From contig VYDB01000016.1 of the NCBI GenBank assembly GCA_009843635.1, forward strand, positions 1-35,727: a stretch of 35,727 nucleotides of DNA, given 5' to 3'. Under the pieces are notes generated by a model. It was not told the DNA's origin, searched no databases, and saw nothing but the letters and a program-made list of their open reading frames with translations. Shown here piece after piece: positions 14,352 to 35,727 of the stretch. The stretch comes from Gammaproteobacteria bacterium. Lineage in GTDB: Bacteria > Pseudomonadota > Gammaproteobacteria > Pseudomonadales > Azotimanducaceae. How positions within the stretch are numbered: the first letter of the stretch is position 1; the number at the start of each line of letters is the position of its first letter. The position numbers and the translations under genes are program-made.

Positions 14352-14396
14352 TTGCCTGCAGCGGCTCTCCGATTGCGCGTGTTGCCGGTGGGCGAC

Positions 14397-15272: not shown

Positions 15273-15516
15273 TCAAGGATCCGAGGTCCAGGTCTTCGAG
15301 CTCGTTGTCTTCGGTGAGCGTGCGCACCCGCAGTTCCGCCTGCTTGAGCGCGGCTTGGCACTGGCGGGTGAGCTTGACGCCCTGCTCAAAGGCGGCGAGG
15401 GAGGCTTCGAGGCCGAGTTCGCCGGACTCCATCTGCTTGACTAAGTCTTCGAGCGCCTTCAAGGCGGCTTCAAAATCAACTTCGCCATCAGCTCCGTCTT
15501 GGCTGGCCTCGGTCAT
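15262..15516 (-). CDS. xseB: exodeoxyribonuclease VII small subunit
   Basis: 84 aa. The core [20 protein letters not shown], then [20 protein letters not shown], is the XseB coiled-coil signature. It associates with XseA to degrade single-stranded DNA. The ATG at 15516 (MTEASQD) is chosen because the upstream extension is Pro/Ala-rich and overlaps the preceding gene. It begins four bases after the stop of the small upstream gene and overlaps ispA, so the three likely form one leftward operon. Confidence 0.93.
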
Positions 15517-15520
15517 CGCT

Positions 15521-15772
15521 TCAGGCTGCGTCGGAATCGGGCTTGGCGGCTTGGCCGGTGCAGTGCCACGCACCGCTGGCCGGATCGACGGCAATCAGCC
15601 CTTCGTCCTCCAGCTTGGAGAATTCGCGGCGCACCATCCACGCGCCCATGGGCTGGTTGCGATCCCGCAGCAAGGTGCAAATGTCGCCCGGACGAAATTC
15701 AGCCTGCCCCGACGCCACCAGCTCGCAGATCAGGCCAAAGATGGTTTCCGTGCGTTTTCGATCAATGCTCAT
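15521..15772 (-). CDS. small conserved hypothetical protein, winged-helix-like
   Basis: 83 aa from the ATG at 15772. The sequence ([20 protein letters not shown], then [20 protein letters not shown] and [20 protein letters not shown]) has the pattern of a small winged-helix fold, with a helix-turn-helix followed by a beta hairpin. I recall similar uncharacterised proteins in marine gammaproteobacteria but cannot name a function. It ends four bases before xseB, which suggests co-expression. Confidence 0.75.
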
Positions 15773-15833
15773 TGCCGTCTTGTACCAAAAACGGTGCCCG
15801 ACACACAACCGCGCTTTACGTACAGCGCAGACC

Positions 15834-17201
15834 TCATTCCCGCCAAGGCCGGCCTTGCGCGTAAGCGCCCAAGCGGCGGTTTAACTCGCGAACCAAGTCT
15901 TCGTTGCCAGCGGCCACGGCGAGCGCCTCCCGCTGGGTGGCCAGCGCCTTGTCGAACTGGCCGAGTTCCGCGTAGGCGGCGGCCAAGGTATCCAGGTAGG
16001 CCGCGTTGGGCTCCAAGGCCACCGCCTGCTGGGCCTGGGCGAGCGCCAACTCGCCGTTGCGCACCCCGGCGGCGCTGGAGGTGGCGCGCAGCCACGCATA
16101 GCCATTCAGCGCCTCGGCGGTGCCGGCGGCGAGCACCCGCTCCAACCACTCCGAAGCCTCGTCCTCCCGGCCTTCAGCCAGCAGCAGGCGCACCAAGCGC
16201 AGGGTAGGGCGGCTGAAGCCCGCCTCCGCGCCACGCCGATACCAAGCCATCGCCTCGTCACTGTCCGCGGTCACGCCCAGGCCCGCTTCGAAGATATGCC
16301 CCAAGCCGACGAAGCTGCCCGGCGCCTCCAGGGCTGCGGCCCGGGCGAACCACTGCCGGGCTGCGTTGAAATCCTGCTCAAGGCCCCTGCCGGTCAGGTA
16401 GGCGTGGGCCAAGTTGGCCATGCCATTGCCGGAGCCCCGCTCGGCACCTTGCTTGAAGTAGGCCGCGGCCTGCGCCACTGAGGCACCTTTGAGTTCGCCG
16501 CTGCGGACCATGTAGCCCAAGGCGACGGGCGCTTCCGCACTGCCAGCCTCCAGGGCGCGTTCATACCATTGCTTGGCCTGTTCGGGGTCCGGCTCGTCGG
16601 TAAACGCCGTCCTGTAACTAGCGGCAAGCTGCACCATCGCCGCCTCGTGGCCCTGCTGCGCCGCCCGCTCCAGCCAGACGCGGGCCTCTTCGAGATCATG
16701 GGCCGGGCCGGCGCCGGTGAGGTAGGCGTAGCCCAAGTGGTATTCGCCCGCAGCATGCCCTGCGGCGGCCGCCCGCGCAAAGAAGCCGAAGGCCAGCGAC
16801 TTGTCGCTGCGCACGCCGTCGCCGTGAAAGTGCAGGCTGCCGCGGGCGACCAGCGCCGCCGGGTTCTCGGCGTCGAATTCCAGGGCACGGGCGTAGTCCT
16901 GGGCGGCAGAGACGTGCATGCCCTGGGCCTGGAAGCTGTAGCCGCGCAGGTAATAGGCGTGCGAGCGCTCATGCGGGTGCAGCCGATGGGCCACCACCGC
17001 CGGGTCCAGCCAAGCGCGGGCGAAGGTGAACTGCCCCTGCTCGATCAACTCAACGGCCCGGCTGACGAAGGCGCGTGGATCGAAAGTGGCGGCGTGGGAG
17101 AGGGGGCTCAGGCAGAGGGCGAGGGCGGCGGCTGTGGCCGCGAGGCGAACGCTGTCGCACGCGCCAACCGCCAGCCCAACCTTGCTCCACAGCCGCATCA
17201 T
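15834..17201 (-). CDS. Sel1-repeat/TPR secreted protein
   Basis: 455 aa. The N-terminus has a signal peptide with its hydrophobic stretch around residues 20-37 (ATAAALALCLSPLSHAA). The body is a chain of TPR/Sel1-like repeats such as AGEYHLGYAYLTGAGPAHDL, EEARVWLERAAQQGHEAAMV and GFGxxAMAWYRRGAEAGF-type units, with two plain TPR-like units near the C-terminus. Such solenoids bind proteins in the periplasm or outer membrane. No partner is evident. It lies 61 bases upstream of the small winged-helix-like gene and is divergent from ssrA. Confidence 0.88.
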   Translation of the reverse strand: MMRLWSKVGLAVGACDSVRLAATAAALALCLSPLSHAATFDPRAFVSRAVELIEQGQFTFARAWLDPAVVAHRLHPHERSHAYYLRGYSFQAQGMHVSAAQDYARALEFDAENPAALVARGSLHFHGDGVRSDKSLAFGFFARAAAAGHAAGEYHLGYAYLTGAGPAHDLEEARVWLERAAQQGHEAAMVQLAASYRTAFTDEPDPEQAKQWYERALEAGSAEAPVALGYMVRSGELKGASVAQAAAYFKQGAERGSGNGMANLAHAYLTGRGLEQDFNAARQWFARAAALEAPGSFVGLGHIFEAGLGVTADSDEAMAWYRRGAEAGFSRPTLRLVRLLLAEGREDEASEWLERVLAAGTAEALNGYAWLRATSSAAGVRNGELALAQAQQAVALEPNAAYLDTLAAAYAELGQFDKALATQREALAVAAGNEDLVRELNRRLGAYAQGRPWRE

Positions 17202-17263
17202 GCCCCGATGGTAGCGGATTGCGACACCGTGCTAAACTTCGCCTCCGTTTAAGCAAGTCCATT

Positions 17264-17621
17264 GGGGGCGATACGGTCTCGACGTCGGTCTCAAAGCAAA
17301 AGGTGCATGCCGAGAGAGTAGCGGCTCTCGCTAAACAATCGCTGCAAACCCATAGTTGCCAACGACGACAACTACGCACTAGCGGCCTAAACCGCCGCTA
17401 ACGCTGATGATCCCTCGCCTGCGGGGTGAAATCGGCGGCAAAGACAGCAGGATCGCGCTCTCGCCCACGCCTGGGGGTGGCAGCGTCAAACCTTTCCGGG
17501 CTCGCCAACAGCGCCCTGGCCGCCGGGCCGCTTGCGGTTAAAGCAATAGACGGACCCTAAGCATGTAGAGCCGATTGCGGCGAACCCACGGACGCGGGTT
17601 CGACTCCCGCCGCCTCCACCA
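17264..17621 (+). ncRNA. ssrA: transfer-messenger RNA
   Basis: 358 bases. The 5' end GGGGGCGATACGG pairs its first seven bases with CGCCTCC just before the 3' ACCA, forming the acceptor stem, and the T-arm GCGGGTTCGACTCCCGC is intact. The tag frame starts at GCC 17358 after a TAGTT and reads ANDDNYALAA, ending at TAA 17388-17390. The mRNA-like region and the pseudoknot-rich stretch between ~17400 and 17560 are of normal length. The tag is of the gammaproteobacterial type and gives the best single clue to taxonomy. It rescues stalled ribosomes with SmpB. Confidence 0.97.
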
Positions 17622-17661
17622 ACCCTTCCCGCCATGCGGGATGTTTAAGAGCGCAGAAAAC

Positions 17662-19551
17662 ATGTTCCGAGCCCAACTCCTCGCTCCCGTTTTTCTCCTA
17701 TCACTCGTCACGGCCTGCGCACCGCCAGGGACTGACCATCCGGACATACAGGTTCCTGATCTTCTGGGTGCCACGCCTTGGACCGATCTTGAGCTGGAGG
17801 ACGGCGCGGACGACTTTCACTTTGTCATTGTTAGTGATCGTACAGGTGGCGCTCGACCCGGGGTTTTTGCCGGTGCGATGCCCAAGGTAAATCTGCTTTC
17901 ACCTGCATTCGTTGTAAGTGTTGGCGATTTAATCGAGGGCTACACCGAGAACAAAGCCCAGTTGAATCGCGAGTGGGATGAGATGGCGTCGTTTGTCAGC
18001 GAGCTTGAGGCGCCATTCTTCTATGTCGCAGGCAATCACGACATGAACAACGCGGTTATGGCTGAGGAGTGGCAACGACGATTTGGCCCTAGCTACTATC
18101 ACTTCCTTTACAAGGATGTGTTGTTCGTCGTCGTCAACAGCGAACTCTTTGGCATGGTAGGCCAACCTGACACTCCCGTGCCAGGCCCTTGGAAGCAAGC
18201 CGACCAAATGACCTTTATCAAGTCTGTGCTTGCGCAGCACCCAGATCCGCGCTGGACGATCGTGTTGGTGCATCAACCGCTATGGAACTATCCGTCGGTC
18301 AACGAAGATTGGCTTGAGGTTGAAGCGTTACTTGGCGAGCGCGACTACACGGTGTTTGCCGGCCACTTCCATCAGTACAGCCGAGTGACACGCAATGACC
18401 GAAACTTCATCACGCTGGCAACAACAGGCGGAGGCAGCGGGCTGCGCGGCACGGCCTTTGGCGAGTTCGATCACGTAGCTTGGGTGACGATGCGCGAAGA
18501 CGGGCCTCGTATTGCCAACGTCCTACTCGACGGCATCCATGACGAAGATGTATCCAACCCAGAGCTCTTGTCCAGTGTGACAGAAGTGGCGAACGCCATC
18601 GAAATGGAGGCGCTGAAATCCACTGACGATCTCTTCAATGAAGCGAGCCAAAAGGTCACAATAACGAACCCGACCGAGTCGACCCTTACGATCGCTCCGT
18701 CCGTCGCGCGCCAGACGAACTTCAACATCCAAGGGTTAGTGCCCGTGTCGATACCAGCCGGGGAGAGCGTGGAGTTGTTTTTGCGTCTCTCCACCGATGA
18801 GCCCGTACCGTACCACTCACTCACCGCTGCGTCCGTCGAATGGATCGTTACGGGCACTATTGGTGAAAGACTCGTGCAATTCCCGGTTTTAACGCCCGTC
18901 TTACCCCTTTCGAAGTATGCGATTGGCACGATAGACGGCGTAGAGGTCGATGGCGACCTGTCCGAGTGGGGGCCACTCACTTACAACGCCGCCCGGCAAG
19001 GCGATGTTGTATCCCCAGAGCTTGAGCCAAACGATGTTTCCTTTCAGTTCGATGTCAGAGAGGGGCCGGAGCACTTGTACATCGGCGTCAATGTCATCGA
19101 CGATGATGTGAGCGCGCATGCGGACCTCATTCCCAGGGCACAGGATTCAATTAGCTTCTCTATAGATCCGCGCGACCCGCCTGAGAGGGATGCCAACATG
19201 GATGTTGGCCAAGCTGTGCTCAGCGGTGACTTGGCTGCTCAAATTGCAACCATAGTTCCAACCGGTGCGCATGCGAAAGACGAACTTTTATCCTGGGTCG
19301 ACGATGCAAATGCGAATACGCAAATCTCATTTGCTTCGACCGACACGGGCTATGCCGCGGAACTTGCCGTGCCGTTAAGCTACATCGCATCAAAATCACC
19401 CAATGGCGACGACTGGCAAGAGGCGCGCATATCCGTAGGCGTTTTCGATCTCGACAGCGACGCACATGTCGCCGATGTTCTGAACTGGCAACCTTTTCGC
19501 TATGGCGGTGCGCCCTTGGCGGGCAGCCAGGTTTTCGTGCGTCCTAACTGA
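17662..19551 (+). CDS. lipoprotein metallophosphoesterase
   Basis: About 629 aa. The N-terminus MFRAQLLAPVFLLSLVTAC is a lipoprotein signal with lipobox LVTA|C (Cys19). An ATG at 17641 would add seven residues; either may be used. The calcineurin-like phosphoesterase domain follows: VSDRTGG (SDRTGG in place of the usual SDxHG), SVGDLIEGY, VAGNHDM, VLVHQPLWN and FAGHFHQYSRV give the metal-binding Asp, Asp, Asn-His, His and His. A middle beta-rich region is followed by a C-terminal domain with IDGVEVDGDLSEWGP and FDVREGPEHLYIGVNV, like CBM9-type binding domains. It is exported and membrane-anchored; substrate unknown. It starts 40 bases after ssrA, and its base composition is lower in GC than the block before. 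Confidence 0.88.
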   Translation: MFRAQLLAPVFLLSLVTACAPPGTDHPDIQVPDLLGATPWTDLELEDGADDFHFVIVSDRTGGARPGVFAGAMPKVNLLSPAFVVSVGDLIEGYTENKAQLNREWDEMASFVSELEAPFFYVAGNHDMNNAVMAEEWQRRFGPSYYHFLYKDVLFVVVNSELFGMVGQPDTPVPGPWKQADQMTFIKSVLAQHPDPRWTIVLVHQPLWNYPSVNEDWLEVEALLGERDYTVFAGHFHQYSRVTRNDRNFITLATTGGGSGLRGTAFGEFDHVAWVTMREDGPRIANVLLDGIHDEDVSNPELLSSVTEVANAIEMEALKSTDDLFNEASQKVTITNPTESTLTIAPSVARQTNFNIQGLVPVSIPAGESVELFLRLSTDEPVPYHSLTAASVEWIVTGTIGERLVQFPVLTPVLPLSKYAIGTIDGVEVDGDLSEWGPLTYNAARQGDVVSPELEPNDVSFQFDVREGPEHLYIGVNVIDDDVSAHADLIPRAQDSISFSIDPRDPPERDANMDVGQAVLSGDLAAQIATIVPTGAHAKDELLSWVDDANANTQISFASTDTGYAAELAVPLSYIASKSPNGDDWQEARISVGVFDLDSDAHVADVLNWQPFRYGGAPLAGSQVFVRPN

Positions 19552-20140
19552 CTGGCTTTCCATTATTCCAGACGATCTCGAACAGAATCTGAGGCGAATC
19601 ATCCGGAACACGCCGTGGTTCATGGACGCACTGCGCGCCGTGCGTTCGGTCGCTCCGCCCGAAGCCTGCATCGGCAGCGGGGCGATTCGAAACGCTGTGT
19701 GGGACGCACTGCACTCGTACTCGACGCCGTCGTTTCTGGCGGATGTCGATGTGCCCTACTTCGACCCAGATGACTTATCAGAAGCCACAGAGCAACGATA
19801 CGAGAAGCGGCTTAAGGCGCTTAGACCTGAGTTGACCTGGGACGTGAAGAACCAAGCCGCCGTGCATCTCTGGTTCCACAAGGTGTTTGGCCATGAAGTC
19901 GAACCGCTACGCTCCATGAGAGATGCCGTAGCAACTTGGCCTGAGACCGCGTTGGCCGTCACCGTTGGGCTGCAGCCAGACGACAGCATCACGATTACGG
20001 CGCCAATTGGATTGGACGATCTATTCTCGATGGTAGTCCGCCGAAACCCCAGACGGGTCAGCGTCGAAACCTACCGGAAACGGATTGCCGAAAAGATGTA
20101 TTCGAAAAGATGGCCAAGGGTTCGCATCGTTCAGGAGTAA
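19502..20140 (+). CDS. nucleotidyltransferase family protein (COG3575/DUF925 type)
   Basis: About 212 aa. ACIGSGAIRNAVWDALH (helix with G-S-G-A-I-R-N), SFLADVDVPYFDPDD (the paired Asp of nucleotidyltransferases) and DLFSMVVRRNPRR match the DUF925 family, predicted nucleotidyltransferases of unknown substrate. The ATG at 19502 overlaps the phosphoesterase gene by 50 bases; a shorter start around the TDWLSIIPDD segment is possible but lacks ATG/GTG. The tight overlap suggests coupled expression with the phosphoesterase. Confidence 0.75.
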   Translation: MAVRPWRAARFSCVLTDWLSIIPDDLEQNLRRIIRNTPWFMDALRAVRSVAPPEACIGSGAIRNAVWDALHSYSTPSFLADVDVPYFDPDDLSEATEQRYEKRLKALRPELTWDVKNQAAVHLWFHKVFGHEVEPLRSMRDAVATWPETALAVTVGLQPDDSITITAPIGLDDLFSMVVRRNPRRVSVETYRKRIAEKMYSKRWPRVRIVQE

Positions 20141-24826: not shown

Positions 24827-26176
24827 TCAGTCCGCGATGGATGCCGGAATCCAGCTGCCGTGAAAGCCATTCGGAATGCGCGGCAGTTCAATCGACGCGA
24901 CCGGCTCATTGTCCATGGTCGCCGCGTCCATGATGACAAAGCGGCTGCTGTCCGAATGGGCATCGTAAACGAACGTCATCAGGTAGCCGTCATCCTCGCT
25001 CTTCGGGTCGGCCGCGGGGGCGAACACCGCCTCACTACAGACGCGATCCCTTCCAAATTCGATCGCCGAACGCGCACCCCTCTCCCGGTCGTACTTCAGA
25101 ATGGTGCCCGAGCCATTCATTGGGTCGACGGTGAAGCCCGGCTCCGACAGGCTCATCATGTAGCCGTAGCGATGCTTGAGGCCGATGACGCTGTCGGCAA
25201 CCCGGGGGAATTCGGCGATGCGGTCGTCCACCTGCTCCTCGCGCACCTTGCCGGTGACGGTGTCGATGGTGAACCGCCAGAGTTCCGGCGGCGGAAAGTC
25301 CATGGACGATTCGCGCCAAATGTGGCTGGAACGGGGCACGTCAAGCACGATGGCGTCGCCGTCCTCATAGGAATTCATGGGGTGGAAGACGTAGCAGGGA
25401 TTGATGTCGTACCAGGTCACCTGGTCGTCGGTGCCGTTGCGCGGCATCACGCCCAAGCGGGCCGGGTAGCTGTCGTCCCAGCAAAAGGGCATTTCGCCCC
25501 TCATCGCCAATTCCATGTTGAACACTGCCGGCAGGTCCATGAACACGACGTGGTTCCGGGTGACGTTGAAGTCGTGCATCATGGTCGGCCCGCCAACCGT
25601 GATGTTCTCCACCTGCACCAATTGGCCATCCGCCGCCACGCGCAGGTAGCGCAGGTAGGGCGGCATCGCCGAGTAGCCGAAGGCGAGCAGCTCGCCGGTG
25701 ACCGGGCAGATCTTCGGATGCGCGGTGAACGAGCCGTTCAGGACGCCGTCGAAGTCGGTGGGGCCCACCGTGCCCAACTCGCCATCGACCACATAGGGGA
25801 AGTGGCCTTCCTCGAGCGCGAGGATCTTGCCGGCATGGCCGATGACGTGGGTGTTGGCCTTTGACGACTTCATGTCCATCAACACGGCCCAGTCCAGGTC
25901 GGTTGTGGGATTGGCGATGAAGGGGGTCTGCACGTACCGGTTGCGGTACCACTCGGCGCGGCCGTCACGAATCCTGACGCCGTGCAGCATGCCGTCGCCA
26001 AGGAACGGGTGGCTGCTGAATCCGGTGAAGGGGTTGGCGCCGTTGCGCACGAAACGGCCATCAAGCTCGGCGGGAATGGTCCCGGTCACCTTTAGCGCCG
26101 TTAGTGTGCGCTCCTCGCTGATGGGGCGGCCATTCCCGCGCAGGTGGATCGGTGTGTCTTCAATCGCTTCTGCCAT
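24827..26176 (-). CDS. carotenoid oxygenase (carotenoid cleavage dioxygenase family)
   Basis: 449 aa, full length for the family. The four iron-binding histidines of the propeller are in place: His153 (FTAHPK), His201 (MMHDFNVT), His265 (YVFHPMNSYEDGD) and the C-terminal His in GFHGSW. DGRFVRNGANPF and FLGDGMLHGVRI are typical N-terminal signatures. It cleaves conjugated double bonds of carotenoids or related aromatic stilbenes with O2. An AGGGAG is 9 bases before the ATG. Substrate not predictable; ispA is the only isoprenoid gene nearby. Confidence 0.92.
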   Translation of the reverse strand: MAEAIEDTPIHLRGNGRPISEERTLTALKVTGTIPAELDGRFVRNGANPFTGFSSHPFLGDGMLHGVRIRDGRAEWYRNRYVQTPFIANPTTDLDWAVLMDMKSSKANTHVIGHAGKILALEEGHFPYVVDGELGTVGPTDFDGVLNGSFTAHPKICPVTGELLAFGYSAMPPYLRYLRVAADGQLVQVENITVGGPTMMHDFNVTRNHVVFMDLPAVFNMELAMRGEMPFCWDDSYPARLGVMPRNGTDDQVTWYDINPCYVFHPMNSYEDGDAIVLDVPRSSHIWRESSMDFPPPELWRFTIDTVTGKVREEQVDDRIAEFPRVADSVIGLKHRYGYMMSLSEPGFTVDPMNGSGTILKYDRERGARSAIEFGRDRVCSEAVFAPAADPKSEDDGYLMTFVYDAHSDSSRFVIMDAATMDNEPVASIELPRIPNGFHGSWIPASIAD

Positions 26177-26853: not shown

Positions 26854-27253
26854 GAAGCTCTTGTCTGGGTGGCAGACACCGTCCGGCCGCGATTCCGGGT
26901 GCGTGACCGACGAGTAGATAACTGACGAAAGTCCAGTAGCGCGAGAACAGCTCGGTGTCGTGACCGCCGCAGCCCAGCGCACTGATAATGCTGGCGGCAA
27001 CGCAACCCTACGCGTCAAAATCAGGAAAACAACGTGTCCAACCCGTGGGGTTCACTCCAATGGCACTAGATTCCCAACAAGTGGGCTTTCAAAGTGTCCC
27101 CATTGCTCATCAAACATGGCGAGCAGTCCGGGCAACCGGTTGGGGCTCTCTGTGCCAACTACGATTTGCGTCATGTTCTGTGCTCAGTGGGGCTCAAGCG
27201 GTAGTGGTGGGGTAGGGCGCGAGCGTCACATAGGACGGGCTGCGTTTTCTGCC
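26854..27253. other. gene-poor stretch with one possible 40-codon ORF
   Basis: About 400 bases. The minus strand holds an ORF of 40 codons (27174 to 27052) beginning MTQIVVGTESPNRLPGLLAM, with no recognised family and no clear Shine-Dalgarno. A second minus-strand frame around 26840-27000 stays open and reads SALGCGGHDTELFSRYWTFV, but has no start. Both may be gene fragments. Confidence 0.3.
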
Positions 27254-27346
27254 TCAGCCGGCAGCACTCGCCACTTGGAATGCTGGCCGCTCGCGCAGGC
27301 GAGCGAAACAAGCCTGGACGTTCGGATAGTCGTCAGTTAGCACCAT
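27254..27346 (-). pseudogene. internally deleted glutathione S-transferase gene (30-codon ORF)
   Basis: An ATG with GGAGGA upstream opens directly into VLTDDYPNVQACFARLRERP and AFQVASAAG, then TGA. This aligns to the last 29 residues of the intact GST at 31331-31945 (VVSEHYPNSRAYFARLRERP...). The start codon and leader of that GST (31943-32010) also align with 27344-27416. So the gene has lost about 174 codons in frame, keeping its start, ribosome-binding site and C-terminus. It may still be translated as a 30-residue peptide. Confidence 0.75.
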
Positions 27347-27408
27347 GTGGTCCTCCGCACGGTCCGCACAAGCGATGGGAGCGGGAGGCTGCCAGAAAAA
27401 TGGTGGAC

Positions 27409-27717
27409 TCAACCCGATGCAGCCAACCGCCCGTCGCTCCCGATTGACGGCAGGCGCCCGATCTCGTCGCCGTGCTCGCGTTCGGCTAATCTCAGCTCGT
27501 AGAGCTTCTGCAGATTCAGCCAGAACTCGCCCGACGTCCCGAAGAACCTCGCCAGTCGAAGGGCGGTGTCTCCCGTAACAGCGCGCTGACCGTTCAGGAT
27601 CTGGGTAATGCGGTTCACCGGCACTTCGATCCGCCGCGCCAGCTCCGCCGCGCTCATTCCTAGCGCATCTAGGTCTTCCCGCAGCGTCTCGCCCGGATGT
27701 ATTGGTTCACGTGTCAT
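27409..27717 (-). CDS. higA: HigA-type antitoxin (XRE family)
   Basis: 102 aa with the start HPGETLREDLDALGMSAAELARRI and the helix-turn-helix MSAAELARRIEVPVNRITQI, LNGQRAVTGDTALRLARFFG, typical of HigA. The C-terminal part binds and blocks HigB. It starts 16 bases after the higB stop. Its stop lies inside sequence shared with the upstream region of the other GST copy, so the HigBA module sits at a duplication boundary. Confidence 0.93.
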   Translation of the reverse strand: MTREPIHPGETLREDLDALGMSAAELARRIEVPVNRITQILNGQRAVTGDTALRLARFFGTSGEFWLNLQKLYELRLAEREHGDEIGRLPSIGSDGRLAASG

Positions 27718-27733
27718 GTTCTATCTCCCTATC

Positions 27734-28015
27734 TCAGTGGTAGTCGACAATCTGCACCTTCGTCGGACCGGGGCTCCCATCGGCCCATTCGAAGCAGATT
27801 CGCCACTGATCGTTGATGCGTATGCTCCATTGTCCCTTGCGATCGCCCTTCAGGCCTTCAAGGCGATTGCCGGGTCGCGCCAAGTCCCGCAGCCCGATCG
27901 CCGCGTCGAGCTGGTCGAGCTTGCGCGAAGCGGTTCGCGCAAAGCCGGAGAAAGCGGCAACCCTGCGTCCGTTGTAGAAGCTCTCCGTTCTCTTGTCTGC
28001 AAAGCCGACAATCAA
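27734..28015 (-). CDS. higB: HigB-type toxin (RelE superfamily)
   Basis: 93 aa starting at TTG 28015. It reads VGFADKRTESFYNGRRVAAF, LDQLDAAIGLRDLARPGNRLE, GLKGDRKGQWSIRINDQWRI, CFEW, the HigB/RelE-like fold with the conserved Arg/Trp and SIRIN-type strand. HigB cleaves mRNA on translating ribosomes. The toxin gene comes first, as is normal for higBA. The neighbour in the other direction is vapBC, transcribed divergently from an 80-base promoter region. Confidence 0.92.
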   Translation of the reverse strand: MIVGFADKRTESFYNGRRVAAFSGFARTASRKLDQLDAAIGLRDLARPGNRLEGLKGDRKGQWSIRINDQWRICFEWADGSPGPTKVQIVDYH

Positions 28016-28048
28016 CGCCCATTCGACTCGTTCAGTTGTTGACGTTCG

Positions 28049-28077
28049 AGCCTAAGCTTTGGTATGCATTACGTCAA
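28049..28077 (-). promoter_or_regulatory. higBA promoter
   Basis: On the minus strand TTGACG (28077-28072) and TAGGCT (28054-28049) are spaced by exactly 17 bases, ~35 bases ahead of the higB TTG start. Confidence 0.55.
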
Positions 28078-28081
28078 GCGT

Positions 28082-28095
28082 AACTCAGTTGAGTT
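28082..28095. promoter_or_regulatory. palindrome between divergent higBA and vapBC promoters
   Basis: AACTCA-GT-TGAGTT, six-base arms with a two-base centre. It lies between the -35 elements of higBA and vapBC and is not present in the second vapBC copy. A HigA operator is a likely role. Confidence 0.45.
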
Positions 28096-28098
28096 TGC

Positions 28099-28150
28099 TT
28101 GCCCGAAATCGATCAACGCGTTAGGGTAGAAGGCTGATCGATCTTCTACC
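28099..28150 (+). promoter_or_regulatory. vapBC promoter and operator, copy 1
   Basis: TTGCCC (28099-28104) and TAGGGT (28122-28127) are spaced by 17 bases. The perfect inverted repeat GGTAGAAG (28125-28132) / CTTCTACC (28143-28150) overlaps the -10 box, as expected for VapB autoregulation. The same elements with the same spacing stand before the second vapBC copy although the spacer bases differ. Confidence 0.65.
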
Positions 28151-28161
28151 TGCTGTACGTC

Positions 28162-28419
28162 ATGGGACTCAACATCAAAAACGACGAAACCTGCCAGCTC
28201 GCCAGCGAGCTTGCGCACCTAACCGGCGACACTATGACCGGCGCAATCACGATCGCGCTGCGCGAGCGTCTCGAGCGGGAGCGCCGAGCCCGCGGCGTGG
28301 AGAAGCGCCTCCGGCACATGCGCGGCATAGCCGAACGCTGCGCTCGTCTGCTCGGACCCGGCCCATCCGCCATCGAGCACGGCGACGTTCTCTACGACGA
28401 CCGGGGATTGCCGTCTTGA
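28162..28419 (+). CDS. vapB: VapB-type antitoxin, copy 1
   Basis: 85 aa of the Rv0623/PSK-type transcription factor family: MGLNIKNDETCQLASELAHL, TGDTMTGAITIALRERLERE and the C-terminal IEHGDVLYDDRGLPS that docks on VapC. Its protein sequence is identical to copy 2 (32166-32423). The stop TGA overlaps the TTG start of vapC by three bases. Confidence 0.93.
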   Translation: MGLNIKNDETCQLASELAHLTGDTMTGAITIALRERLERERRARGVEKRLRHMRGIAERCARLLGPGPSAIEHGDVLYDDRGLPS

Positions 28420-28820
28420 TCATTGATAGTTCGGCTCTGCTTGCCGTCCTCTATCGGGAGCCTGACGCAGCGCTGTTCGAGCAGGCGATCGCGACAACCT
28501 CCTCCTCCCGGATGTCGGTAGCAAACGCGCTGGAGGCCTCCATGGTTGTCGAAGGCCGCGGCGGCGTTGCTGCCGGGGACGAACTCGACGCGTTCCTGGA
28601 GGCCGCCGACATAAAGCTGGCACCAGTGACGGCAGAACACTTTGTCGCTGCTCGGCGCGCTTGGCGGCGCTTCGGCAAGGGCAACCATCCAGCAGCGCTC
28701 AATTTCGGCGATTGCTTTGCCTACGCACTCGCCGAAGCGGCCGGCGAGCCGCTTCTATTCAAAGGCGACGACTTCGCCCAAACTGACATCACGCCCGCAC
28801 TCGCGGGCGAAGACCCTTAG
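28416..28820 (+). CDS. vapC: VapC-type PIN-domain toxin, copy 1
   Basis: 134 aa PIN-domain ribonuclease starting at TTG. Acidic residues are in the right places: Asp4 (MIIDSSALLA), Glu40 (NALEAS), Asp99 (NFGDCFAYALA) and Asp118 (FKGDDFAQTDI). VapC cleaves specific tRNAs or rRNA. It differs from copy 2 at 14 of 134 residues; no active-site residue differs. Confidence 0.94.
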   Translation: MIIDSSALLAVLYREPDAALFEQAIATTSSSRMSVANALEASMVVEGRGGVAAGDELDAFLEAADIKLAPVTAEHFVAARRAWRRFGKGNHPAALNFGDCFAYALAEAAGEPLLFKGDDFAQTDITPALAGEDP

Positions 28821-28843
28821 CCTTTTGTGGCCAGCTAAAGGCT
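28819..28843 (+). terminator. terminator-like hairpin after vapBC copy 1
   Basis: AGCCTTT (28819-28825) pairs with AAAGGCT (28837-28843). There is no T-run after it, so Rho-independent termination is doubtful. Confidence 0.3.
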
Positions 28844-28990
28844 TGAACCAAGGACAGATGCGCGGGTTGGCTGGCCGCACGGGTATGGTTCCGCCCTAAG
28901 GCAACACGTTTTGATAAAACATGTTCATGCTTCCGCTTCGCAATCGGTGGGAGCGACGGTGCGACCCTCGGAACTGGGACCGGTGCCGCC

Positions 28991-29491
28991 ATGACTATCA
29001 CGCAACGCCGACAAGCCGTACGGGCTGTGATCCTGTCAGAGGCCGACCACACCGTGTTGCTTTTGCGCATGCAACACCCCGACCGCCAAAGTGACTTCTG
29101 GCTGTTGCCGGGCGGCGGAGTCGAGCCGCACGAAACTCCGATAGAGGCGTTGCGCCGGGAGCTGTGGGAAGAAACGGGCTTGGCCTTGACGAGCAAGCCC
29201 ACCTTGATATGGCATCGTGCTCACCAGTTCGAACGCGGTTTTCACGAAAACGCCCAGGTCATTGAGCAGCACGAGGAAATCTACCTTGTAAGCGCACGGC
29301 GATTCGAACCATCCACGCACAACAACCCGGAACCTAGCCAAGTCGGGAACTTCCAAGAATACCGCTGGTGGTCAATAGCCGAACTGAAGGCCGCCACCGG
29401 CGAACAGTTCGCGCCGAGGGCGCTTCCCGCTCTCGTCGAAAGACTCGTTTCCAGCGGTCCGCCCCCCTCACCGGTCTCCCTATGCGATTAG
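28991..29491 (+). CDS. NUDIX hydrolase
   Basis: 166 aa. The Nudix box GGGVEPHETPIEALRRELWEETG begins at residue 41 and is complete (Gx5Ex7REUxEEXGU). It follows WLLPGG and precedes a beta-rich C-terminal half with EEIYLVSARRFE. It hydrolyses a nucleoside diphosphate derivative; the substrate cannot be read. It stands alone, 170 bases after vapC. Confidence 0.92.
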   Translation: MTITQRRQAVRAVILSEADHTVLLLRMQHPDRQSDFWLLPGGGVEPHETPIEALRRELWEETGLALTSKPTLIWHRAHQFERGFHENAQVIEQHEEIYLVSARRFEPSTHNNPEPSQVGNFQEYRWWSIAELKAATGEQFAPRALPALVERLVSSGPPPSPVSLCD

Positions 29492-29528
29492 ACCGCTGAG
29501 TTTCAGCAATTTGTCACTGAGCGCGCCG

Positions 29529-30396
29529 TCAGCCCTTCCCCGGTATCCCCGGCTCGGTCATCCCGCGCACGTCGAGCGCGTCGTCCAACTGCTCCGGCGC
29601 AACTAGCCCCATCTCCTCAACCACGTCCCGCACCGACCGACCCTCGCTCGCCGCCTTCTTCGCCACCACCGCCGCCTTGTCGTACCCGATGTACGCGTTC
29701 AGCGCCGTCGCGATCGACGGATTCCGTTCGAGCAGTTCGCGTGCCCGCTCCGGCCGCGCCGTGATCCCCGCGACGCAACGCTCCGTGAACACCGCCGAGC
29801 CGTGCGCCAGCAGGGTGATCGACTCCAGGAGCGCATCGGCCATCACCGGCATCATCACGTTCAGTTCGAAGTTCCCGCGCTGGCCTCCGATAGTGACCGT
29901 CGTGGTGTTCCCGGCCACCCGCGCGCACACCATCATCAGCGCCTCGCAGATCACCGGATTCACTTTGCCCGGCATGATCGAGCTCCCCGGCTGCAACGCC
30001 GGAAGTTGGATCTCCGAAATCCCCGAGGTGGGCCCGCTCGCCAACCAGCGGATGTCGTCCGCGATCTTCATGAGGCTCGCCGCCACGGTGTTCAAAGCTC
30101 CGGCGAGCGACACGCACGCGTCCTTCGCCCCCTGGGCCTCGAAGTGGTTCTCGGCCTCGCGGAACTCGATGCCATACCGCTCCGCGACCTTCGCCATCGT
30201 CTTCCCCGCAAACTCCGGGTGCGTGTTGATGCCGCTCCCGGTTGCGGTCCCCCCCAGCGCCACTTCCGCCATTTCCTCCGATGCCCGCTCCACCCGCTCA
30301 ATCCCCTTCGCCACCTGGGCCGCATATCCGCCGAACTCCTGCCCCAGCCGCACCGGCGTCGCGTCCATCAGATGGGTGCGCCCTGACTTGACGATC
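29529..30396 (-). pseudogene. fumC: 5'-truncated class II fumarase
   Basis: Contains the C-terminal ~60% of a class II fumarase: IVKSGRTHLMDATPVRLGQE, GGTATGSGINTHPEF, the signature GSSIMPGKVNPV (128-139 counted from MDATP) and the C-terminal domain. Everything upstream of IVKSGRTHL is missing and replaced by the 64-bp repeat at 30401-30464. The frame continues in phase into the repeat but meets a TGA without a normal start. An internal start at MDATP would lack the N-terminal domain and part of the active site (a full enzyme needs ~460 aa). So it is non-functional as read. Confidence 0.85.
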
Positions 30397-30400
30397 CCGC

Positions 30401-30464
30401 CTCCGGGACCCGCAGGGGAAAAACTAACAGATAAGGGCGTCCCGCCCTCGATTGGGCCGTTGGA
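30401..30464 (-). repeat. 64-bp repeat (copy 1, inverted relative to window end)
   Basis: On the minus strand this reads TCCAACGGCCCAATCGAGGG, then CGGGACGCCCTTATCTGTTA and GTTTTTCCCCTGCGGGTCCC, GGAG. It matches the last 64 bases of the window with one difference (C versus T at base 11). It contains a GGGCG-GGA-CGCCC hairpin. It abuts the truncated fumC. It is likely a dispersed element or the end of a mobile element; the class is unknown. Confidence 0.85.
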
Positions 30465-30504
30465 ATCTGCTTGCCATCAGGAGGTTGGGGTTTGTTTCAT
30501 TAGG

Positions 30505-31230
30505 TCACTTTCTACGTGCTACGACCCGATGAAAGCCAAGGTTCTCGCCGGCGCTGGAGGTTAGATATTCGTCACCAGAAGCGCCGGTGATCTGGTGCCA
30601 GAGGAGCCAGAGATCGCGACCGCCCGGCAGCTCATCCGCGCACTCCACCTCGACGCATCTTGGGAGTGTCCAGTGATGGCGCCACCAGTCCGCAGAATGA
30701 AAGGAACTGAATTCCGAAGGCCACTCCGGGGGCAACTCCTCTATTTCCTGTAGAACCCCAGCATTCACTATCCCGATCTGGCCTCCCGGCACCAAGTATT
30801 GGCTGATCGCTGGAAGAAACGTGGCGTCAGTGCCGAAGTACTCGAATGCATCAATTGACACGATTGCGTCGAAGAACTCGTTCGCGAAGGGCAGATTTCT
30901 GGCGTCAGCGTGAATGGGAAACACGCTCTCGCTCATCCCTTGACGGGCAATTCGCGTGGCGTTGTCTGACGCCGAAATCCAGAGGTCAGTGGCCCAAACC
31001 TGCACCCCAAACTCGCGGGCAAGAAAGACCGAGCTGACCGTTTTTCCACATCCCAAATCGAGGACGCGCATCCCGGGCCGCAAATCCATGGCTTCGCACA
31101 GAAACTCAGTCAGCCAGAGGACGTTGGGGCCCATTTCATTTTCCATGATCCATTCAATGGGATATGCGCTCGCCTTGGGAAATCTCGCGAGCGGTGCCGA
31201 CACTCTAGCGTTGGGTGGTGTGGTGGGCAT
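30505..31230 (-). CDS. class I SAM-dependent methyltransferase
   Basis: 241 aa. Motif I VLDLGCGKTVSS at 56-67, then VWATDLWISASDN (acidic loop), HADARNLPFANEFFDAIVSI and LVPGGQIGIVNAG fit the Rossmann-like methyltransferase fold. The GPNVLWLTEFLCEAMDLRPG lead-in is shared with a broad group of uncharacterised enzymes. Acceptor unknown. It lies between the fumarase fragment and the GST. Confidence 0.88.
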   Translation of the reverse strand: MPTTPPNARVSAPLARFPKASAYPIEWIMENEMGPNVLWLTEFLCEAMDLRPGMRVLDLGCGKTVSSVFLAREFGVQVWATDLWISASDNATRIARQGMSESVFPIHADARNLPFANEFFDAIVSIDAFEYFGTDATFLPAISQYLVPGGQIGIVNAGVLQEIEELPPEWPSEFSSFHSADWWRHHWTLPRCVEVECADELPGGRDLWLLWHQITGASGDEYLTSSAGENLGFHRVVARRK

Positions 31231-31330
31231 GGTTGGTATCCTAGTCTAGTCCAGCGCCCTCGACACACCTTGTCTCGACGCGAGGTGTCAGGCGCAACGT
31301 GCCGCCACCGGAGTCTTGGCCAGGGCTGCC

Positions 31331-31945
31331 TCAGCCAGCGGCACTCGCTGCTTGGAACCCCGGCCGCTCGCGCAGGCGTGCGAAATAGGCCCGGCTGTTG
31401 GGGTAGTGCTCTGATACCACACCGTGGTGGTTCGCGAGGGCCAGGGTATAGCCGATCATGATGTCCGCGATCCCGAACGTGTTCGCGACGAGGTAGTCGG
31501 CTTCGGTGAGAGCGCCTTCGAGCGCATCGAGACACTGGCGTGTCTTTGCCCAGTAGTCTTCGAGCACAAACGGGACGGTTCTGCCCTCCGGCGCGATGCG
31601 GTGGTGATTGATCAATCCGCCAAGTGAGCGCGCAAAGGTGGATTCCCCAAACCAGCACCACTGTCGACAGAGCGCACTGTCTGCCGTGCCCGGCGCGGGC
31701 ACCAAATCTCCTCCGCCGTAGCACTCGACAAGGAAGTCCACCATGGCCCCGGATTCGAACATCGTGAAGTTCCCGTCGGTCATCACCGGAACCTTGCCGG
31801 TCGGGCTGAGTGCCCGCCATTCCCGGCTCGACCGAAACTCGGTGGAGAAATCGACAACCTCGACCTCGTAGGGCAGCCCGCGCTCCTCGCAGAACCAGAT
31901 GGGGCGAAAGCCGCGGGTGTTCTTGACGTGATAGATCTTCAGCAT
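31331..31945 (-). CDS. glutathione S-transferase family protein (intact copy)
   Basis: 204 aa. The N-terminal thioredoxin-like half begins MLKIYHVKNTRGFRPIWFCE with the SPTGKVPVMTDGNF and MFESGAMVDFL glutathione-site segments; the C-terminal half is helical with a conserved N-capping NTFGIADIMIGYTLA. An AGAGGA lies before the ATG. It is followed upstream by vapBC copy 2. The C-terminus and leader are duplicated at 27254-27416. Confidence 0.92.
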   Translation of the reverse strand: MLKIYHVKNTRGFRPIWFCEERGLPYEVEVVDFSTEFRSSREWRALSPTGKVPVMTDGNFTMFESGAMVDFLVECYGGGDLVPAPGTADSALCRQWCWFGESTFARSLGGLINHHRIAPEGRTVPFVLEDYWAKTRQCLDALEGALTEADYLVANTFGIADIMIGYTLALANHHGVVSEHYPNSRAYFARLRERPGFQAASAAG

Positions 31946-32102
31946 GGGATCCTCTATTCGATCCGCACGAGCGATGGGGGCGAGAGGCTACGGGAATGGA
32001 CGATCCAACCCGTGTCCCGTGCGTACTCACTTCATTGTCAATCAACCCTGCAGCCCACGCAATGGGGCCTTCTGAAACGCCCTGACAACGCACCAAGGTG
32101 GC

Positions 32103-32154
32103 TTGCCCGAAATCAATCCACGCGTTAGGGTAGAAGGCCAATCTATCTTCTACC
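32103..32154 (+). promoter_or_regulatory. vapBC promoter and operator, copy 2
   Basis: TTGCCC (32103-32108), TAGGGT (32126-32131) and the inverted repeat GGTAGAAG (32129-32136)/CTTCTACC (32147-32154). Arms are the same as in copy 1 while the spacer differs at several bases, which supports selection on the arms. Confidence 0.65.
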
Positions 32155-32165
32155 TGCTAAACGTC

Positions 32166-32423
32166 ATGGGACTCAACATCAAAAACGACGAAACCTGCCA
32201 GCTCGCCAGCGAGCTTGCGCACCTAACCGGCGACACTATGACCGGCGCAATCACGATCGCGCTGCGCGAGCGTCTCGAGCGGGAGCGCCGAGCCCGCGGC
32301 GTGGAGAAGCGCCTCCGGCACATGCGCGGCATAGCCGAACGCTGCGCTCGTCTGCTCGGTCCCGGCCCATCCGCGATAGAGCACGGTGACGTTCTCTACG
32401 ACGACCGGGGATTGCCGTCTTGA
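32166..32423 (+). CDS. vapB: VapB-type antitoxin, copy 2
   Basis: 85 aa, protein identical to copy 1; four silent base changes occur, all in the last 70 bases. An in-frame upstream extension to 32103 passes through the operator and is not a real start; the ATG at 32166 matches copy 1. The stop overlaps the vapC start. Confidence 0.93.
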   Translation: MGLNIKNDETCQLASELAHLTGDTMTGAITIALRERLERERRARGVEKRLRHMRGIAERCARLLGPGPSAIEHGDVLYDDRGLPS

Positions 32424-32824
32424 TCATTGATAGTTCGGCCCTGCTTGCCATCCTCTATCAGGAGCCGGACGCAGCGCTGTTCGAGCGGGCAATCGCGACG
32501 GCCCCCTCCTCCCGGATGTCGGCGGCAAACGCGCTGGAGGCCTCCATGGTCGTAGAAGGTCGCGGTGGCGTTGCTGCTGGAGACGAACTCGATGCATTCA
32601 TGGAGGCTGCCGACATAAGGCTGGCGCCAGTGACGGAAGAGCACTTTGTTGCGGCTCGGCGCGCTTGGCGGCGTTTCGGAAAGGGCAATCATCCAGCAGC
32701 GCTCAATTTCGGCGACTGCTTTGCCTACGCACTCGCCGAAGCGACCGGCGAACCGCTTCTATTCAAGGGAGACGACTTCGCCCAAACCGACATTGCATCA
32801 GCTCTCGCGGACGAACGCCCTTAA
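32420..32824 (+). CDS. vapC: VapC-type PIN-domain toxin, copy 2
   Basis: 134 aa from TTG. Catalytic acids Asp4, Glu40, Asp99 and Asp118 are kept. It differs from copy 1 at 14 positions, mostly in the 11-35 and 61-73 stretches and in the last ten residues. With identical antitoxins, each VapB should be able to neutralise both toxins unless these positions matter. Confidence 0.94.
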   Translation: MIIDSSALLAILYQEPDAALFERAIATAPSSRMSAANALEASMVVEGRGGVAAGDELDAFMEAADIRLAPVTEEHFVAARRAWRRFGKGNHPAALNFGDCFAYALAEATGEPLLFKGDDFAQTDIASALADERP

Positions 32825-32883
32825 GCGTGTGTCGTCGGTTGACGATATGGATGAAAGTTTGGAAGTAGCATAAGGAAAAACAA

Positions 32884-33108
32884 ATGAACACGTTGCACGA
32901 AATCGGCGCCGAGGGGCTGCGCGAGGCTGTCAAGGTCGCGCACCGATGGAACCGTTGGCACATTACACTAGACACATTCGCCAAGGCTTGCGGCATGCCG
33001 GAAGACTCTCGACGGCGGCTTAAGCTAGGCAGGCTCCTGCGGCACAGAGATGCCAGCTCAGAACTGTTTCGCAATTGCCGTGGAAGCTATCCGAACCCCG
33101 CCCGATAA
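32884..33108 (+). CDS. small hypothetical protein, 74 aa
   Basis: ATG with AAGGA seven bases upstream. The protein (MNTLHEIGAEGLREAVKVAH, RWNRWHITLDTFAKACGMPE...) is helical and basic, and has no recognised family. It overlaps the end of the nuclease-like gene on the other strand by 22 bases. The good ribosome-binding site supports it as real. Confidence 0.5.
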   Translation: MNTLHEIGAEGLREAVKVAHRWNRWHITLDTFAKACGMPEDSRRRLKLGRLLRHRDASSELFRNCRGSYPNPAR

Positions 33109-34406
33109 AGTACAGGATTCAAGCGCACATGGTCTTCGACCTGGCCCGGCATTCGGTAGAGGCGGCGGCCGCGCTTCCTAAAGTCATACACACGATAGAG
33201 ACTGTACTGTCGAGTAAATTCCCGTGAAAATTCAACTTCGTTCTGGCTGATGTAGAAGGGCTGGTACTTTCCGCTATTGGTGGTCTTAACCTCTATGAAC
33301 ATCTCTTCCTCCCTCGCGACGCCGTCGTCTCCTATTGGGAAGGAACGTACGTCATAGCCAAGCCCATCGCCTTGCTCCTTGCTGCTCCATTCTACGTCTT
33401 CCGCCAAGTCTTCACGTCCGGCCCGTCTTAGATGAAACTTCTCGAATTCCAAAACGAACTTTTCTCCTGATTCACCTAGTGCTCGATTCTCCGCCTCCCG
33501 TTGAGAATAGTTGACGTGGCGCGCTAAGTACTTACGGTCAGGCGGCGTTATTACTGGTATGCGATCTGGTAGATCTTGATCCAGCACTTTATCCCAGTTC
33601 GCAGTGTATGGAGCGCGTTCGATGTCGCGCAAAGTATTGATCCGCTTCAAATCGCTTTGCTTTCCGGCCAGATGCGCGAGGACTACATCTCGCAACTGAG
33701 ACTGATAGTTGAACAGCGGCTTGTATCCAGAAATGTAAGTAAACCCAAGCCCGACCAAGATGGCGCTGATGTTCTGGTGTTTTCGCTCCACTGCACCATC
33801 GGGGCGATTTCGGAGTTTGTTCCTCAGCGCCCGCCGATGCCCTGTTTTGTTATAACGTTCGCCGCGTAGCTCCTTGCCTAGCATATCGAAATAGTCTTGA
33901 ACGCACGCTTCACATTCAAGCCAATCCCAACCCCTCACTTGCAGCCGCGATTGTCTCTCTTCAGGCGTTATCGCCATGTTTTCCAACAGAGCGGATCGCA
34001 ACAGCTCGCGCACAGTATGGTTGTTCAAGAGTTCAAACAACTCATCGTCCAAATACGCATATGCGATATGCTGTTCGACTTGGCTGCGGCTGGTGACAGT
34101 GGTTAGCTCGCTGTACGACTCGCGCTGTCCGGGCTTGAGCCGATGGTGCCAGAAGCCTTCGCTGCGTAGATGGAAGTACGGGTAGATTGGCCTTGGGCTA
34201 TCTCCCTCCATTCGCAGCTCCCTAAAGCGCTCCGTAAACGCTCTTATCAAGGGATCGGAATACTCGATGTTGTTGTCAGTTAGTGTTTCTTTCTCGATCA
34301 AATCCGTCACCGCCAAAAGCATCGCAACCTTGTGCGGACTCTCACGCGTACCTCTTCTATGAAGGTTCAGAGCGGAAAACACGGATTCGTAGTAGAGTAG
34401 CGTCAT
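33087..34406 (-). CDS. DUF3883 (PD-(D/E)XK-like) protein, predicted restriction-type nuclease
   Basis: 439 aa. The N-terminal part (GTRESPHKVAMLLAVTDLIE) resembles the N-terminal domain of ScoMcrA-type HNH proteins. The middle holds a helical region RGERYNKTGHRRALRNKLRN. The C-terminal DUF3883 domain reads GYDVRSF and FIEVKTTNSGKYQPFYISQN, giving D and ExK of a PD-(D/E)XK nuclease, followed by YSLYRVYDFRK. DUF3883 occurs in restriction and anti-phage proteins. No methylase or helicase accompanies it. A role in defence is inference. Confidence 0.8.
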   Translation of the reverse strand: MTLLYYESVFSALNLHRRGTRESPHKVAMLLAVTDLIEKETLTDNNIEYSDPLIRAFTERFRELRMEGDSPRPIYPYFHLRSEGFWHHRLKPGQRESYSELTTVTSRSQVEQHIAYAYLDDELFELLNNHTVRELLRSALLENMAITPEERQSRLQVRGWDWLECEACVQDYFDMLGKELRGERYNKTGHRRALRNKLRNRPDGAVERKHQNISAILVGLGFTYISGYKPLFNYQSQLRDVVLAHLAGKQSDLKRINTLRDIERAPYTANWDKVLDQDLPDRIPVITPPDRKYLARHVNYSQREAENRALGESGEKFVLEFEKFHLRRAGREDLAEDVEWSSKEQGDGLGYDVRSFPIGDDGVAREEEMFIEVKTTNSGKYQPFYISQNEVEFSREFTRQYSLYRVYDFRKRGRRLYRMPGQVEDHVRLNPVLYRAGFG

Positions 34407-34496: not shown

Positions 34497-35345
34497 TCAC
34501 TCAATCGGCGACAACAACTCCACCGCCGTCACCAACTGCCGAACCCCATGCGAGTGGGTTTCGTTGAACACATTTCCCTGCTCGGCCCAGCGGTGCAGTG
34601 AGTTGATGTCGAGCTTGGCGCACTGCGGCCTCACGTTCCAGGTCACGCGGGCCGGGGAGCAGGTGCTCTGGTTGTACGACGGCCCGGTGGTCGAGCCTCG
34701 GAACAGCACGGGCTCGCCGGTTTGCGACGGGATCGATTTCGCTTGGTGCAAGCCTTCAACCATGTTCCCGTCGTAGGTCATGGTGGTGAAGTCGAGGGCT
34801 TCGGGATCGTTAACCACCAGGAACGCTTGCGCCTCCACCCGCAGGAGCGGGTCGCTGCAGGCCTCCGGGACGCAGGCGCCGAGCCCTTCGCCTGGCGATG
34901 CGTCGCAGGACGTGTGCACCCAATGCACTTCGATGGTGTCGCCGGGCTTCACGCCTTCGTAGGCGCCTGGCGCTGGCGACAGCTCGGCCTCGCTGAGGTC
35001 TGGCGTTTCGTTGCAGGCGTAGCCGCCGTCATCGGCGTCGCTGACGAACAGGCTGAATCCCGGCCCCTTGTGTTCGGCGTTGGTGTGCGTATGGATGTTG
35101 CACAGGTTCATCCCGCTGGCCGGTGGCGCCAAGGGGAACGCTTCCGTGTTCAAGCCCATCGCGCTGGCGATGTCGCGCGGCGTTTGCGGCCCCATGTCGG
35201 TGCATAGCTCGGCGCTTGCCGGTTCCGGTGCTGGGATTGCCTCTGCCGGTTCCGGGATGGCCTCGGCGGGTGGGCTGGTGTCAGGCGTGCTTTCCGTGCC
35301 GCAGGCAGCGGTCAGCAGGGCAATGGCAAGAACTAAAAATCTCAT
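34497..35345 (-). CDS. delta-class carbonic anhydrase, lipoprotein
   Basis: 282 aa from ATG 35345, preceded by GGGAG at 9 bases; an upstream TTG/ATG at 35420 would spoil the signal. MRFLVLAIALLTAAC is a lipoprotein signal (lipobox Cys15). A Pro/Glu/Ala linker with PAEAIPEPAEAIPAPEP follows. The catalytic domain has CTDMGPQTPRDI, CNIHTHTNAEHKGPGFSLFV, EVHWVHTSCD and LRVEAQAFLVVNDP, as in bacterial delta-class carbonic anhydrases. Zinc ligands are among the His of NIHTHTNAEH and VHWVH. It hydrates CO2 outside the cytoplasm. Confidence 0.88.
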   Translation of the reverse strand: MRFLVLAIALLTAACGTESTPDTSPPAEAIPEPAEAIPAPEPASAELCTDMGPQTPRDIASAMGLNTEAFPLAPPASGMNLCNIHTHTNAEHKGPGFSLFVSDADDGGYACNETPDLSEAELSPAPGAYEGVKPGDTIEVHWVHTSCDASPGEGLGACVPEACSDPLLRVEAQAFLVVNDPEALDFTTMTYDGNMVEGLHQAKSIPSQTGEPVLFRGSTTGPSYNQSTCSPARVTWNVRPQCAKLDINSLHRWAEQGNVFNETHSHGVRQLVTAVELLSPIE

Positions 35346-35534
35346 GAGAATGGGCTCCCGTTGCAGGTTGAATCGAGCCGCGTCCGCCGCCCGTAGGGCT
35401 TGGCGGCGGGTATGGTCCAACTTACAGGGATGCGCTCGATGCCGTCAACGGGCGTCCCGCTGCCGCGTTCAGAGCACAAAGCAGGCGTTGACCCCGGTGG
35501 CACGCAGAATTACCGTAGCGGCAAGGAGGCATTC

Positions 35535-35727
35535 GTGACAGTCAAGTCCTCAATCTCGCTCACAGACGAGCAGCACGGCGTCAACCTGCTGCGTCAGCGC
35601 ATGGACGCTGAGGAGTTGGAGTCCGCAGCGTTGCGCGAGCTTTTGTCGCGGCGGGAGGCGCAATCCAACGGCCTAATCGAGGGCGGGACGCCCTTATCTG
35701 TTAGTTTTTCCCCTGCGGGTCCCGGAG
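35535..35727 (+). pseudogene. ParD-like antitoxin with internal deletion, partial at window end
   Basis: GTG preceded by AAGGAGG reads VTVKSSISLTDEQH, then GVNLLRQRMDAEELESAALR, ELLSRREAQ. ParD antitoxins carry about 20 more residues (the helix-turn region with YSSVSAV) between TDEQH and GVELLRQRM, so this gene has lost them. After REAQ the frame runs into the 64-bp repeat and off the window with no stop. No parE is visible. Confidence 0.65.
35664..35727 (+). repeat. 64-bp repeat (copy 2, cut by window end)
   Basis: Matches 30401-30464 inverted, with one mismatch. The window ends inside it, which suggests the assembly broke at a repeat present in several copies. Confidence 0.85.

Follow-up and report, generated by a model that had tools for sequence, protein, structure and literature searches.

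The closest described relative of the toxin-antitoxin (TA) system considered here is VapBC30 of Mycobacterium tuberculosis, whose structures (PDB 4xgq/4xgr) were the only PDB sequence matches for the VapC (E ≤ 0.01) and VapB (E ≤ 1) proteins encoded in a 35,727-nt stretch of DNA, hereafter the window, from a Gammaproteobacteria bacterium (contig VYDB01000016.1, assembly GCA_009843635.1). We take VapBC30 to be the product of Rv0623-Rv0624, with which the Pfam name 'Rv0623-like' agrees, and VapB30 is presumably of the ribbon-helix-helix type. Unlike M. tuberculosis VapBC30, the window carries two linked paralogous vapBC cassettes, A and B, with identical VapB proteins, and the host, represented by a draft genome, has a Pseudomonadales metagenome-assembled genome (L019) as its nearest publicly recorded relative. 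According to a review (PMC4803016), most antitoxins contact DNA through their N-terminal part and the toxin through their C-terminal part; VapB30 appears there in a table of antitoxin structures sorted by DNA-binding domain.

Gene conversion has been described for vapB25-vapC25 and vapB31-vapC31 of M. tuberculosis in a 2026 preprint (PMC13061034), the only report of conversion in vapBC modules found in a search that left subscription literature mostly outside. As in the window, those events affect vapBC modules and the tracts are short (across every event in that study the median is 101 bp), but they rest on a comparison of 151 assemblies from a single species, whereas here the evidence comes from paralogs in one genome and the tract is confined to the antitoxin. 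The A/B pair is a new, clean instance of this known process. Evolutionary discussion continues on how duplicated TA pairs escape harmful mismatch once the toxins drift apart. Cross-interaction between close homologs among paralogous TA systems is presumed to be an intermediate before insulation, as put in a review (PMC10305079). We propose that at this locus the shared stage covered in that review would be renewed by sequence copying. An identical antitoxin, common operator arms and two diverging toxins make the pair a natural test case for such a stage.

Two vapBC cassettes share a block of identity within vapB

Cassettes A (28162-28820) and B (32166-32824), both on the plus strand, align without gaps at an offset of 4004 bp. 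Their longest identical run, 199 bp (28157-28355 against 32161-32359), extends from 5 bp 5' of the vapB ATG to codon 64-65. The vapB genes differ at 4 of 258 bp, all of them silent and in the final 64 bp (28356, 28371, 28374, and 28383), leaving the proteins identical and placing four silent changes in the last 21 codons, while vapC differs at 46 of 405 bp and 14 of 134 residues. The offset, the roughly 199 identical bases, the four silent tail changes, and the VapC count had all been reported in an earlier note made from the sequence alone, and every figure was reproduced. When the 59 differences over 28092-28820 were shuffled, a run of 199 bp was reached in 0 of 20000 trials; counting third positions only, the identical run covers 64 of the 218 codons, with p 8e-5 by shuffling.

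Silent divergence between the copies (dS, silent substitutions per silent site) is 0.370 in vapC (30/102.7 silent sites) and 0.289 in the vapB tail (4/16.7), compared to 0 in the block (0/49). With four silent and no replacement changes, the tail holds too few differences to indicate constraint beyond ordinary purifying selection. For vapC, the ratio of replacement to silent divergence (dN/dS) of 0.14 denotes purifying selection, and because the 14 residue differences also lie at family-variable positions, both toxins are probably functional. Eight acidic VapC columns, conserved in >95% of aligned VapCs and including D4, E40, and D99, are intact in both toxins, and some of these are presumably catalytic. 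VapB belongs to Pfam PF07704 (PSK_trans_fac, Rv0623-like; 81.6 bits against a cut-off of 28.3) and both VapC copies to the PIN family PF01850, while an NCBIfam search assigned VapB and VapC to no family.

Constraint on vapB does not account for the block

The pattern could in principle reflect purifying selection on VapB alone, at the protein or nucleotide level, keeping the antitoxins alike while vapC diverged, and the silence of every vapB change speaks for this explanation. The earlier note regarded it as sufficient if related, unlinked loci showed vapB conserved and vapC divergent to the same degree. We therefore codon-aligned 68 cassettes, 80 of 94 related loci having been retained. L003 and L004 (the same DNA as L019 and L020) and L017 (a duplicate of L018) were excluded, 29 matches were rejected for a vapB ending elsewhere than at codon 84-85 or a following frame shorter than 118 codons, and matches extending past the locus start were skipped. 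Cassettes were accepted by how long the frame following vapB was, and the 68 thus include L070 (no vapC match) and L072 (a partial match), neither of which occurs in the 76 pairs compared below.

A vapC divergence of 5-20% was found in 76 pairs, A/B among them, formed by 35 of the 68 cassettes; individual cassettes recur in several pairs, which are therefore not independent. Across these 76 the median ratio of vapB to vapC divergence was 1.05. The A/B ratio of 0.14 was the lowest, followed by 0.53, and it was again the lowest among 559 pairs diverged by up to 30%, where L077/L081 came next (0.36). Conservation of vapB alongside a divergent vapC is thus not what unlinked loci display. Site rates gave a similar answer: rates from 57 close pairs predict 16.1 third-position changes in the block, where none was observed (P 3.5e-9; P 1.6e-4 with the scale halved), and 6.3 in the vapB tail, where there are 4. 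Across the family, third positions change at a mean rate of 0.318 in the block and 0.296 in vapC. Given the median ratio and the 16.1 changes expected, vapB is not a slow gene in the VapBC30-type family.

The same-genus genome G007 provides a third sequence. Among eight other genomes of the genus searched for vapB, it has the one close copy, whose protein is 95% identical and whose gene lies in the same variable interval. The other G007 match, also on that contig, is only 44% alike. Matches in the remaining congeneric genomes cover the query wholly or in part and are 46-74% alike; those in G002 are spread over three different contigs. Between A and G007, 16 of 199 sites differ in the block and 14 of 138 in the flanks; the corresponding A/B counts are 0 of 199 and 13 of 138 (Fisher p 5.9e-4 against A/G007). 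In the block, 11 of 64 third positions have changed between A and G007, with a dS of 0.264 over the same 64 codons. In G007 the vapB (L019:5001-5258) is solitary and keeps its predicted operator, but of vapC only a short remnant is left, as the frame that follows vapB stops at codon 22; several other loci likewise hold vapB with a short or absent vapC.

Some distant pairs are indeed less divergent at third positions at the vapB 5' end than elsewhere, as constraint would have it. Nevertheless, given the near-equal divergence of vapB in pairs with similar vapC, the comparable third-position rates, and the changes in the G007 block, purifying selection alone was rejected on the cassette ratios and the site-rate test, and we regard it as very improbable.

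A probable recent gene conversion after an old duplication

Since constraint fails on three counts, namely the cassette ratios, the site rates, and the divergence of the G007 block, the best explanation is an old duplication followed by one recent conversion tract of ~199 bp within vapB, which would leave the two cassettes with a shared regulatory pool; to this explanation as a whole we assign a probability of roughly 0.87. The run length, cassette ratio, G007 comparison, site rates, and dS values all support the sequence of events that the earlier note had put forward, an old duplication and then recent conversion of the antitoxin. Computation shows, within one genome, that identity is local and the flanks on either side are older, and that the identity is above what constraint gives. 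In a GENECONV-like run test on sites polymorphic among A, B, and 12 selected relatives, the A/B run was matched in 0 of 100000 shuffles with all positions and 13 of 100000 with third positions.

The proposed history would begin with duplication of a GST-vapBC segment within this lineage. The copies would have drifted to ~0.3-0.4 silent substitutions per site, with both toxins under purifying selection, before a single non-reciprocal homologous recombination overwrote three quarters of one vapB, starting from the 5' end, with the sequence of its twin, presumably through RecA-type conversion between linked copies; the two operons would now form one regulatory pool. For 0 changes in 49 silent sites the 95% upper bound is 3/49, or ~0.06. 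As a rough estimate, the conversion would then fall within about the most recent sixth of the period after duplication. A protein search of the genome at E ≤ 0.001 returned only two vapB copies and no third, so donor and recipient are both at hand. Outside the block, B carries 8 private changes and A 3, in 138 sites, a weak lean toward A as the donor.

Several observations weigh against this explanation. Donor and recipient are not distinguishable, and a search for a second genome of this species found none, so with one genome per species compared the unconverted state is unseen. In 26 of the 76 pairs vapB is less divergent than vapC, although none except A/B falls below 0.53. The run test over pairs gave p<0.05 for 6 of 81, A/B among them, when ~4 are expected by chance. 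In a one-breakpoint test the shift for A/B fell at codon 128 of vapB+vapC rather than 64 (z 4.12), and of 1037 pairs 6 rank above A/B, L077/L081 at the top (z 6.08); of the 5 others, 4 are low at the vapC 3' end and 1 at the vapB 5' end. These alignments hint at some silent-site conservation at the vapB 5' and vapC 3' ends in distant pairs, for which the site-rate test, with its 16.1 expected changes, already allows.

The window also comes from a 152-contig draft genome, and short-read assemblers can homogenise near-identical stretches, but they need long shared stretches first. Real vapB differences might accordingly have been collapsed during assembly, an identical stretch of ~199 bp being hard for short reads. 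Such a collapse needs shared words flanking each difference, long shared words are rare at the density seen in vapC (46/405), the block would still need to have been unusually alike beforehand, and the flanks are unique and lie on one contig. We consider an artefact of this kind improbable, if somewhat less so than constraint alone, and favor the conversion.

Predicted operators and cross-regulation

A perfect inverted repeat, GGTAGAAG-N10-CTTCTACC, precedes vapB A, and the same arms with another spacer precede vapB B; both are predicted VapB operators. In the 4.49-Mb genome the exact-arm pattern occurs at two places only, both 5' of these vapB genes. Across nine genomes of the genus (spacer 8-12) it occurs twice here and once in G007, always ahead of this vapB; no other place carries it, and a backwards control pattern had no match in the same nine. 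A similar repeat was present in 70 of 93 related upstream regions, a count made without a shuffled control and with the duplicates L003 and L004 among the 93. In records labelled with many phyla, a GTAGA...TCTAC inverted repeat lies ~37 to 12 bases before VapBC30-type vapB, and this repeat is likely a family-wide operator.

Because both the VapB proteins and the operator arms are identical, the two operons are predicted to behave as one regulatory unit, in which either VapB would bind either operator and probably either VapC. By analogy with other antitoxins, the tract would cover the DNA-binding part of VapB and leave the toxin-binding tail outside. No known structured RNA underlies the block, Rfam at gathering threshold giving 0 matches over 26900-33100, while over 27900-33000 a sigma-70 promoter scan found 0 promoters and terminators were no more frequent than in shuffles.

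The earlier note had offered selection for antitoxin sharing as another cause. In the form considered here, selection would maintain one common antitoxin and so favor recurrent vapB conversions. Identical VapB proteins, operator arms that are identical and found only at these two places, and vapC genes under purifying selection are all consistent with this, as is a second antitoxin-side mosaic in the Nitrospira loci L077, L081, and L075. However, the Nitrospira mosaic lies between genomes and not between paralogs, and L049/L049_2, the only other single-contig pair among the 68 cassettes, is unbiased (vapB 0.165, vapC 0.151). The data lend this cause no support, given that one neutral tract of 199 bp needs no selection and that the tail, toxin-binding by analogy, lies outside it; we judge it unlikely, though the least unlikely of the alternatives. 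Cross-neutralisation and cross-repression are plausible as a consequence of the conversion rather than a demonstrated cause.

In the Nitrospira pair L077/L081, third positions differ at 5 of 70 codons to the left and 71 of 143 to the right of a breakpoint inside vapB. L081 and L075 differ at 13 of 128 vapC third positions, and over its first 48 vapB codons L081 differs from L077 at 3 of 48 third positions and from L075 at 10 of 48. Recombination inside vapB is thus not unique to A/B, but no rule is established, and antitoxin trees may mislead where recombination ends within vapB. The trio, with a vapC in L081 like that of L075 and a vapB start like that of L077, points toward a broader possibility, in which the VapBC30-type operator and the DNA-binding part of vapB would form an exchangeable module, repeatedly homogenised between cassettes while the tail and vapC keep diverging. 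We offer this as a doubtful extension; if true, several toxins would be held under one common repressor-antitoxin.

Genomic setting of the cassettes

The duplication claimed in the earlier note holds in that GST pieces and vapBC are common to both copies (Table 1), but the segment as a whole is not colinear because a higBA pair (27409-28015, minus strand), absent from that note, sits between the GST remnant and vapBC in copy A. By blastn, 27249-27351 matches 31326-31428 (80/103 identities; 117 nt at 75% in a separate repeat search) and 27341-27390 matches 31940-31989 (39/50). Copy A retains a GST remnant from which ~0.5 kb of the middle is missing. A further 16-bp match in the GST region (E 0.34) was taken as chance. 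Another recent duplication is possibly represented by two GST-like genes with identical match scores, separated by 2.6 kb (G000:C108:11146-11718 and 13749-14321).

Table 1. Coordinates of features in the window
Feature	Position	Strand	Basis
GST remnant in copy A (3' end plus leader, lacks the middle)	27249..27390	-	blastn 80/103, 39/50 to GST B region
higA-like antitoxin, only in interval of A	27409..27717	-	TIGR02607 antidote_HigA E 2e-27; HTH_3
higB-like toxin	27734..28015	-	PF05015 E 3.4e-15
Predicted VapB operator A, perfect inverted repeat	28125..28150		exact-arm pattern search
Putative conversion tract, copy A (identical to 32161-32359)	28157..28355	+	alignment, cassette comparison, site rates
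vapB A, 85 aa, PSK_trans_fac	28162..28419	+	PF07704 E 8.2e-23; VapB30 4xgq_B E 6.5e-10
vapC A, 134 aa, PIN domain	28416..28820	+	PF01850 E 5.9e-15; VapC30 4xgq_A E 6.2e-35
GST B, complete, 204 aa	31331..31945	-	PF13409 and others
Predicted VapB operator B, same arms, other spacer	32129..32154		exact-arm pattern search
Putative conversion tract, copy B	32161..32359	+	alignment to copy A
vapB B, protein identical to vapB A	32166..32423	+	alignment to copy A
vapC B, 14/134 residues unlike vapC A	32420..32824	+	alignment; PF01850 E 1.7e-15

The stretch 14392-19558 of the window and a gene at 34497-35451 match a G007 stretch at 86-89%, while between 19558 and 34497 only vapB and a short upstream flank match; both cassettes thus occupy an interval that is variable between genomes. 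In G002, a different vapB (62%) lies directly behind the same flanking gene of this interval. That 19.6-34.5 kb varies in comparison with G007, where a vapB of its own is present, would suit separate entry of two cassettes from related sources followed by an exchange within vapB. Arguing for duplication instead, GST pieces in the same orientation lie beside both cassettes, and their divergence (23/103 and 11/50) resembles that of vapC third positions (30/134), so that separate entry seems rather unlikely.

Antisense open reading frames beneath vapB, of 75 aa in one copy and 60 aa in the other, were taken as spurious given that their lengths disagree between A and B. Elsewhere in the window, a dispersed repeat (30401-30475 and 35653-35727) has at least 40 matches in the genome, among 40 of 89 candidates scored, and at least 5 of the best lie at contig ends. 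One copy of it adjoins a gene fragment (29529-30368), which we take to be fumarase-like, that is apparently cut N-terminally. A 449-aa gene at 24827-26176 has a 91%-identical second copy elsewhere in the genome (C14) and 7 genome matches overall, and a NOV_C-domain protein at 33087-34406 has a weak, below-cut-off match to a model for a restriction enzyme of phosphorothioated DNA.

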